NCBI GenBank assembly: GCA_021775005.1
Contig: JAJFIK010000033.1
Span: forward strand, 1-56,868
Reading direction: 5' to 3'
Source of the DNA: Rhodospirillales bacterium
Lineage (GTDB): Bacteria; Pseudomonadota; Alphaproteobacteria; JAJFIK01
Length of the DNA: 56,868 nucleotides
The translations under genes were made by a program, and so were the position numbers. This document shows positions 52,892 through 54,121 of this stretch, one piece after another (within the stretch, counting starts at the first letter, position 1; the number at the start of each line of letters is the position of its first letter). The notes under the pieces were generated by a model. It was not told the DNA's origin. It searched no databases and was given only the letters and a program-made list of their open reading frames with translations.

Positions 52892-52956
52892 GGCCTTTGC
52901 GGTGATCGTTTTCCTGTTCTTTTAGGACTTCCTATAAGGCTTTGTTTTTGAAGGGT

Positions 52957-53057
52957 TTATGCATAATCATACGGTATTCAAGTTTCTGCATAACGTATAA
53001 CTATTTGTAATTATTATAATTATGCAAAATTTGACAAAACAATCACTATATGCATAA
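52957..53057. repeat. Four TATGCATA-type repeats over a promoter
   Basis: TTATGCATAA (52957-52966, perfect palindrome), TGCATAA (52987-52993), TTATGCAAAA (53020-53029) and TATGCATAA (53049-53057) lie in a strongly AT-rich 140-base stretch. The last copy overlaps the -10 element of the downstream promoter, as expected for operator sites. Confidence 0.55.
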
Positions 53058-53059
53058 TT
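53031..53059 (+). promoter_or_regulatory. Strong promoter of the nucleotidyltransferase gene
   Basis: TTGACA (53031-53036) and ATAATT (53054-53059) are 17 bases apart; CATAAT one base earlier is an alternative -10. Initiation would fall about 53065-53067, on the start codon itself, predicting a leaderless mRNA. Confidence 0.65.
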
Positions 53060-53065
53060 GGCGGC

Positions 53066-54118
53066 ATGCCTAATGAACCCGCAGAGCTTTCCGGTCAGCA
53101 ACGGCGCATGCTGATCGACACTCGCCAACAATGGATGGCGCTCAAAGCCATAAAGCGCCGTGCCCTGGGCTACGTCGGTTCCATGAGTTGGCAAAAAAAC
53201 GGCGACCGGCAATATCTTGTGCGCAAAGCGAAAGACCCGGTAAGCGGAGTATTCAAAAACCAAAGCCTTGGACTTCGCGCTCCGGAAACGGAGCAAATTT
53301 ACGAAGCTTTTCAAACGGGCCGTACCCAGGTCAAAGCTGATCTCGCAGTAGCGCAGGAAAATATGAAAACGCAATCTGCGATTAACTCACGCATTGGCCT
53401 TGGTAGGGTTCCAATAATTGCAGCCGGAATCTTGCGATCGCTTGATGAGAAAGGGCTTCTTGGGAAAAACGTTCAAGTTGTGGGGACAAACGCTTTGTAT
53501 GCGTATGAGGCAGCGGCAGGTGTTCACTTTGACGCCAATATTATCGCAACCGGCGATATCGACTTCCTGATGGACGCGCGGCGAAATCTTAAACTTACAA
53601 TCCACGACGGGCAGCCTGAGAAATTTATCTCATTACTGAAAGGTGTTGAGGCATCATTTGCTCAGACACCCCACCAGCCATTTCGTGCCAACACGGCCTC
53701 TGGGTATCTGGTTGATTTGATCAAACCTGAGCCGAACCCGCCATGGAAAGATGAATCCGAAACGCTTGGTGGCGGCAGCGAACGCGGTGCAGATTTGGTT
53801 GCCAGCCCAATCATGGGACTGACCTGGCTTGAATCCGCGCCAAAATTTGAAACTGTTGCAATAGATGAAAAGGGTTGGCCGGTACCTCTCTCTTGCCCAG
53901 ACCCTTGTGCTTTCGCAATCTACAAATATTGGATGGGTCGGGAAGCAAAAGGCCGTGATCCCGTGAAGCGTCGCCGTGATGTTGAGCAAGCCCATACCCT
54001 CCACGCTCTCATCGAAAGCCACTTGGTTGATCGTAGATATGATCGCGAGAAAATGAAAAATTTTCCTGCTGGCGTGCTCAATCTGTTTGAAAAAGAAGTT
54101 TTGTCCACCGCCAAATAG
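53066..54118 (+). CDS. GSU2403-family nucleotidyltransferase-fold protein
   Basis: The 350-residue protein matches the GSU2403/NTP_transf_8 family. After a helical N-terminal region with YVGSMSWQKNGDRQYLVRK, the nucleotidyltransferase signature appears: GTNALYAYEAAAGVHF (Gly140-Thr141) and ATGDIDFLMDAR with the metal-binding pair Asp164/Asp166. The C-terminal part is helical. Known relatives have no assigned substrate. There is no ribosome-binding site; the ATG lies about eight bases after the -10, so translation is probably leaderless. Upstream DNA is AT-rich and repeat-bearing. The gene is single, between clpB and an M23 peptidase gene, and looks acquired. Confidence 0.85.
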   Translation: MPNEPAELSGQQRRMLIDTRQQWMALKAIKRRALGYVGSMSWQKNGDRQYLVRKAKDPVSGVFKNQSLGLRAPETEQIYEAFQTGRTQVKADLAVAQENMKTQSAINSRIGLGRVPIIAAGILRSLDEKGLLGKNVQVVGTNALYAYEAAAGVHFDANIIATGDIDFLMDARRNLKLTIHDGQPEKFISLLKGVEASFAQTPHQPFRANTASGYLVDLIKPEPNPPWKDESETLGGGSERGADLVASPIMGLTWLESAPKFETVAIDEKGWPVPLSCPDPCAFAIYKYWMGREAKGRDPVKRRRDVEQAHTLHALIESHLVDRRYDREKMKNFPAGVLNLFEKEVLSTAK

Positions 54119-54121
54119 GTC

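Follow-up and report, generated by a model that had tools for sequence, protein, structure and literature searches.

A solitary PF12281 nucleotidyltransferase gene beneath paired inverted repeats is a candidate self-repressing unit

The window, meaning the whole stretch of 56,868 nucleotides that was analysed, carries a nucleotidyltransferase (NTase) gene preceded by two pairs of inverted repeats, the nearer of which overlaps its predicted promoter. The features of the locus are as follows.

52892-54121, forward strand: presumed inserted unit of operator/promoter and one open reading frame, flanked by the stop codons of clpB and of a convergent M23 peptidase gene; the same-genus genome G002 has 2 bp at this place.
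52957-52993, no strand: putative distal operator dyad, an inverted pair of TTATGCA (52957-52963) and TGCATAA (52987-52993) with 23 bp between them, placed relative to the proximal dyad as in the distal dyads of homologues.
53018-53059, no strand: putative proximal operator dyad of 42 bp, AATTATGCA (53018-53026), 24 bp and TGCATAATT (53051-53059), the span being that of the family geometry.
53031-53058, forward strand: predicted promoter, TTGACA (53031-53036), N16, CATAAT (53053-53058), matching the consensus at 11 of 12 positions.
53066-54118, forward strand: NTase open reading frame, 350 amino acids, ATG start and TAG stop, PF12281 (NTP_transf_8), E 8.1e-55.
53066-53395, forward strand: N-terminal domain (residues 1-110), modeled by AlphaFold as a helix (10-34), a three-stranded sheet (39-70) and a helix (73-109); proposed DNA-binding/dimer domain.
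53177-53275, forward strand: tip of the N-terminal domain (residues 38-70), which covaries with the operator arms.
53396-54115, forward strand: NTase domain (residues 111-350) with G140-T141, D164/D166, D217, K287 and R304-D305-x-x-Q308.

The gene has no second copy in its genome. Its product matches the profile, also named 'GSU2403 family nucleotidyltransferase fold protein', over residues 120-326 with 186.6 bits against a curated cut-off of 26.3. No other Pfam family matched at E <= 1, and the test for the DUF1814 (AbiEii/MenT) sequence family was negative. Similarly, NCBIfam profiles gave no match, no PADLOC family was found at E <= 1 and a sequence search of the PDB returned no genuine relative. 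The original prediction assigned the protein to an NTase family without a known substrate, in accordance with our search of the open-licence literature, which returned no paper on PF12281 substrate or regulation; nor does that literature seem to have recorded such an operator architecture for the family. It also placed repeats over the promoter of this gene, and open reading frame, promoter and all four repeat arms are borne out.

The 7-bp arms TTATGCA/TGCATAA start at 52957, 52987, 53020 and 53051 and form two inverted pairs, with 23 and 24 bases between the arms. Taken as 7-bp arms the proximal pair covers 53020-53057, and it extends to a perfect 9-24-9 dyad at 53018-53059. Measured between their right ends, the two dyads are separated by 66 bp, as at Bradyrhizobium loci. 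Four TATGCA-type copies had been described originally; the four arms stand, but the better unit is TTATGCA/TGCATAA in two inverted pairs. The motif TATGCATA is found exactly at 52958 and 53049, with near copies at 52985 and 53021. As a conserved motif it was dropped, since TATGCATA-like 8-mers show no excess over the whole window (12 found, 13.5 expected) and homologues do not keep the sequence. Four copies of one 7-mer in this AT-rich region of 116 bp arose in 5 of 5000 dinucleotide shuffles, and throughout the 2.85-Mb genome TTATGCA-N15..35-TGCATAA occurs solely as the two window dyads. Transposon terminal inverted repeats were dropped because paired arm copies are absent from the 2.85-Mb genome outside the upstream region. 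An Rfam search of the region yielded a chance miRNA match only. The decisive support for the repeats is the comparison with homologues.

The right arm of the proximal dyad carries the -10 box, which ends at 53058, seven bases 5' of the ATG (53066). The promoter was originally read as TTGACA-N17-ATAATT, ending six bases before the ATG; it holds as a promoter, in the adjoining TTGACA-N16-CATAAT register rather than with N17. From this spacing, the transcript is predicted to start at about 53065-53066, at or beside the A of the ATG. A ribosome-binding site is absent, as had been noted, with no Shine-Dalgarno-like motif at -16 to -4. The promoter spacing thus makes the proposed leaderless transcription plausible for this gene but not as a family trait: in homologues, the most enriched -35/-10 register has its -35 at -14 from the left arm (z 8.1), which implies a leader of ~20-24 nt containing the right arm. 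A second register at +13 (z 5.9) corresponds to that of the window gene and leaves no leader; the AT-rich arm probably accounts for part of its signal. Shine-Dalgarno-like motifs are present in 15 of 46 homologue loci. On the minus strand, a promoter-like TTGTCA-N16-AATAAT (53037-53010) lies between the dyads, from which a short divergent transcript is possible.

Homologues of about 35-49% identity were drawn from plasmids, whole genomes and an alignment-driven scan of genome contigs; the latter gave 453 relatives, of which the best 80 were used, where a single-sequence scan of the same contigs had found none. Although the DNA upstream of these genes shows little relation from locus to locus, most of them are preceded by an inverted repeat, its right arm ending 0-6 bases ahead of the start codon. 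Among 52 non-redundant loci not chosen for repeats, 63% have a start-abutting inverted repeat with a score of at least 8, or 73% when other nearby starts are allowed, compared with 3.5% of 202 other open reading frames in the same loci and 4% of dinucleotide shuffles. For about a quarter of the unselected homologues the automatic test finds no clean repeat next to the start, in part because of wrong or doubtful start codons or a different arm arrangement. A set of 41 loci had been picked for having repeats, which would render target percentages circular, so the 52 unselected loci were used instead and the 41 served only for control open reading frames and counts of distal copies.

The dyads vary in sequence but hardly in size. 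From outer end to outer end most measure 40-44 bp, regardless of how long the arms are (7-26-7, 9-24-9, 10-22-10 or 13-16-13). In 46 proximal dyads aligned on their centre, conservation reaches 91-100% at the outer TT and AA, and the inner bases vary, differing by protein lineage (TTATCCC, TTTCAACAG, TTTTCCACT, TTTGGTA and others). Further upstream, at least one copy of the locus's own arm is present in 20 of the 41 repeat-selected loci, and two or more in 16 of the 41; these copies mostly constitute a second dyad with identical spacing. Of the repeats as first predicted, the TATGCA sequence is absent from nearly all homologous genes, whereas an equivalent repeat pair precedes most.

In many homologues, such as those at L104, L119, L085 and L070, the ribosome-binding site could be provided by the right operator arm itself (GAAAGGAAAA, AGTGGAAAA, AGGGATAA), so that operator and translation signal may be fused. 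In Mesorhizobium (L029, 4950-5010, and L046) the annotated ATG falls inside the dyad TTCAGCAAT...ATTGCTGAA, and a family-consistent start 3' of the dyad would be a non-standard ATT codon. For the homologues at L142 and L144 one in-frame TGA is reported and the right arm ATACCGAAAT overlaps the start codon.

PF12281 members at 25-30% identity have a different N-terminus (YWYF...RYVGPETPEL). Upstream of these genes we found dyads of ~30 bp, often two, built from 10-bp arms and a 10-bp loop (10-10-10), for example TTTATACTCA-N10-TGAGTATAAA, TTGCCCAACA-N10-TTGTTGGGCAA and pairs of TATACCCTACA. Each has its own lineage-specific arms (L008, L010, L012, L016, L020, L022, L025, L152-L154 and L160). 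Since distant members share the plan in shorter form, the dyad architecture appears to be a property of PF12281 as a whole, in two size classes of ~42 bp and ~30 bp.

The AlphaFold model of the NTase protein has a pLDDT of 93. D164, D166 and D217 occupy invariant or near-invariant columns of 53 sequences, providing the acidic residues of a pol-beta NTase; Asp164/Asp166 of the original prediction are thereby confirmed and Asp217 is added as the third. Lys287, Arg304 and Asp305 in the C-terminal part are conserved among homologues. Judged by its sequence, the enzyme has intact catalytic residues of the DNA polymerase beta type together with a separate N-terminal domain. The closest folds to the catalytic domain are the toxin MenT1 (8an4, Z 11.7, rmsd 3.8 over 169 residues) and a Paracoccidioides NTase-like protein (11.0), followed by TM1012, JHP933 and MenT3/TglT (Z about 9). 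The match to AbiEii/MenT toxins spans residues 92-350 and represents a shared fold, not a shared function. The AbiEii motifs (hG[G/S]x15DhD, a Lys motif III and a +DxxD motif IV) are not present as such; the protein has hGT-x22-DhD, K287-x4-R and RDxxQ as variants. The N-terminal domain gave no confident match to a DNA-binding protein (Foldseek E at least 0.23; best VIA Z 7.2, within the noise of the tool). An AP2/arm-type integrase DNA-binding fold, suspected from the sequence pattern, was not among the Foldseek and VIA matches listed for this domain alone.

Genome G002, from the same genus, has both neighbors, but only 2 bp separate the stop of clpB from that of the M23 peptidase gene (TAA-GC-CTA), compared with 1,230 bp in the window. 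The 1,230-bp unit starts after clpB and ends 3 bp past the NTase stop codon. From this comparison with one empty-site genome, operator and open reading frame are presumed to form a mobile unit on their own, gained or lost as one. The congener G001 (G001:C79, L129) has unrelated extra DNA at the clpB-M23 junction; the site may be an insertion hot spot. PF12281 homologues are patchy in distribution and often plasmid-borne. On Phyllobacterium plasmids (L031-L035) they adjoin the gcvP-gcvH-gcvT operon, a position conserved at genus level.

A search for homologue neighbors that recur, proposed with the original prediction, found none: any one Pfam family occurs in at most 2 of 90 neighbors. An adjacent antitoxin gene, as in type IV toxin-antitoxin systems, is likewise absent, the neighbors here being clpB and the M23 peptidase gene. 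The stress or anti-phage role suggested originally thus found no backing in PADLOC matches to the protein, recurrent neighbors or phage records. A defence island was dropped, as PADLOC matches among the 90 homologue neighbors were all singletons, and so was a phage gene, with 0 matches in 50,697 phage records and one in viral contigs. A homologue preceded by dyads of its own is found on the 22.9-kb viral contig IMGVR_UViG_3300036820_000647 (L122), which may be a prophage or else a plasmid assigned wrongly.

The gene is solitary and the unit consists only of operator and open reading frame, so a locus-specific DNA-binding factor is either the encoded protein or lies elsewhere. We compared protein and arm similarity. 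In pairs below 50% NTase identity, residues 38-70 track arm similarity at 0.692, compared with at most 0.632 for equal-length windows of the NTase domain, and they are the better predictor against the whole NTase domain (p=0.006). The partial correlation of tip and arm is 0.27 (0 of 2000 permutations), a value not fully corrected for phylogeny, and NTase-domain identity also keeps a partial correlation of 0.21 with arm similarity. A stricter, non-overlapping nearest-pair test gave rho 0.17 (p 0.31) and is underpowered because arms are saturated among close pairs. By eye, tips and arm classes pair as xWKSLG with TTATCCC, ExSLG with TTCCACT, RRQxSLG plus YYD with CAACAG, VVKSLG with TTTGGTA and GETSLG with TTTCGGTAT. 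TTATCCC arms are common to distant hosts, and all their proteins read WKSLG or WRSLG in the tip. Conversely, Rhizobium alone has TTGCAACAG, TTTTCCACT, TTTCAGCA and TTTATCCC arms, and identical arms recur in distant hosts. The arms thus go with the type of protein and not with the genus of the host.

The inverted repeats overlap the gene's own promoter and are conserved in homologues, as expected for an autorepressor with its operator. Our best inference is that the encoded protein is its own repressor. The originally proposed self-regulation is thus well supported by the comparison, in which dyad geometry is conserved, arms are lineage-specific and arm sequence partially matches the N-terminal domain. 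We consider it fairly likely that the locus is a one-gene, self-repressing NTase unit, resembling AbiE/MenAT compressed into a single gene. In such a unit the protein, probably dimeric, would use the β-sheet tip of its N-terminal domain to bind the inverted arms. Occupation of the proximal dyad would block RNA polymerase, here with the -10 box itself on the right arm, and the distal dyad may add cooperativity or looping. Protein and operator would change together, giving each lineage a private specificity, so that several units could coexist in one gene pool without cross-talk. More tentatively, the NTase domain may be a growth-controlling enzyme of the MenT/AbiEii kind, with tRNA or something else as its target, and autorepression and DNA occupancy, not a separate antitoxin gene, may keep it low.

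AbiEi and Rv2827c repress NTase operons via one or two inverted-repeat pairs over the promoter (PMC7319586, PMC3985639): AbiEi via one pair and Rv2827c via two within -1 to -131 (PMC7319586). In AbiE and Rv2827c-Rv2826c these repeats overlap the promoter and stay within about 130 bp of the start codon (PMC7319586), an arrangement that the NTase gene here shares. Unlike AbiE, which has two genes and a separate winged-HTH repressor/antitoxin, the PF12281 unit encodes one protein whose N-terminal domain is non-HTH (no winged HTH was identified) and has no antitoxin gene. Its arms measure about 8-14 bp compared with 23 bp in the AbiE-type system. With a different NTase family, it would be a one-gene variant of AbiE rather than a member.

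MenT1 and MenT3, tRNA NTase toxins of DUF1814, are the nearest solved folds and share the DxD and the C-terminal Lys and Arg-Asp motif, but identity is only 10-12%, the Pfam family differs and MenA is absent. The conserved residues also resemble AbiEii motifs I-IV (PMC3985639): D164, D166, D217 and K287/R304-D305 correspond, whereas the spacing of motifs I and II is longer (hGT-x22-DhD instead of x15) and RDxxQ replaces +DxxD. The similarity to MenT toxins makes a toxin-like enzyme plausible by inference; toxicity and an anti-phage function are conjectural. Possible, though we would not expect it, is a wider picture in which PF12281 comprises widespread one-component toxin-like modules with repressor and NTase in one polypeptide. 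These would have an undescribed coiled-coil/β-tip DNA-binding domain, with a recognition code readable from natural protein-operator pairs, operator occupancy in place of an antitoxin and diversification that avoids cross-talk.

The same autorepression could also govern an enzyme that is not a toxin, one for small-molecule modification (a resistance-type NTase) or for plasmid or cell housekeeping. A solitary, mobile, autoregulated and antitoxin-free gene without defence neighbors resembles many resistance and accessory genes, and we regard this as a serious if minority prospect. It fits less well with MenT1, MenT3/TglT, JHP933 and TM1012 among the top structural neighbors (Z 8.8-11.7) and with a K287...R304-D305 layout resembling AbiEii motifs III/IV (PMC3985639).

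Binding of the dyads by some transcription factor of the host, with no relation to the encoded protein, is improbable. The outer TT/AA is common to the loci, as a shared host factor would have it, and the encoded protein as binder is itself deduced. However, arms that take four types inside Rhizobium yet recur in distant hosts with similar proteins speak against it, as do a paired pattern unique in the genome and a unit composed of operator plus open reading frame only. We give equally little credence to the repeats acting as RNA, with the proximal pair as a 5' hairpin or the right arm as a ribosome-binding site controlling translation. In many homologues the predicted transcript start lies in the loop, so the right arm would be in the leader, and CC-containing arms place GG at Shine-Dalgarno distance (e.g. 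GAAAGGAAAA before the ATG); 15 of 46 loci have Shine-Dalgarno-like motifs, as given above. In those predictions, though, only the right arm is transcribed, so the pair could form no hairpin, and the distal dyads, although built from these same arms, precede the promoter. In the window, the promoter is inside the dyad, transcription is predicted to begin at the ATG and Rfam gave no genuine match. Least probable is that the repeats, rather than being an operator, serve as termini or guide units in a mobile or RNA-guided element of the REP/TIR or TIGR-Tas kind. In its favor, the gene has a patchy distribution with many plasmid-borne copies, and part of the N-terminal domain superposes on TasH in the whole-protein search (Z 6.7, 71 residues). 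Against it, neither the 3' end nor any other part of the genome has a paired copy of the arms, TasH is not among the top matches listed for the N-terminal domain alone, where prefoldins rank high, and TIGR-Tas arrays mostly have 5-15 units (PMC12045711) compared with one or two dyads here.

Overall, with the self-repressing unit as the favored reading, PF12281, a family without known substrate or regulation, would carry a built-in regulatory logic that can be put to the test. Its natural pairs of protein and operator, dozens of them, keep one geometry while their sequences vary, and so make up a data set for a protein-DNA recognition code, possibly that of a new DNA-binding fold. Should the enzyme be toxic, it would be a rare case of an NTase toxin with a repressor of its own and no need for an antitoxin gene. 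The presumably mobile 1.2-kb unit of operator and open reading frame would also exemplify how such a module can spread alone.
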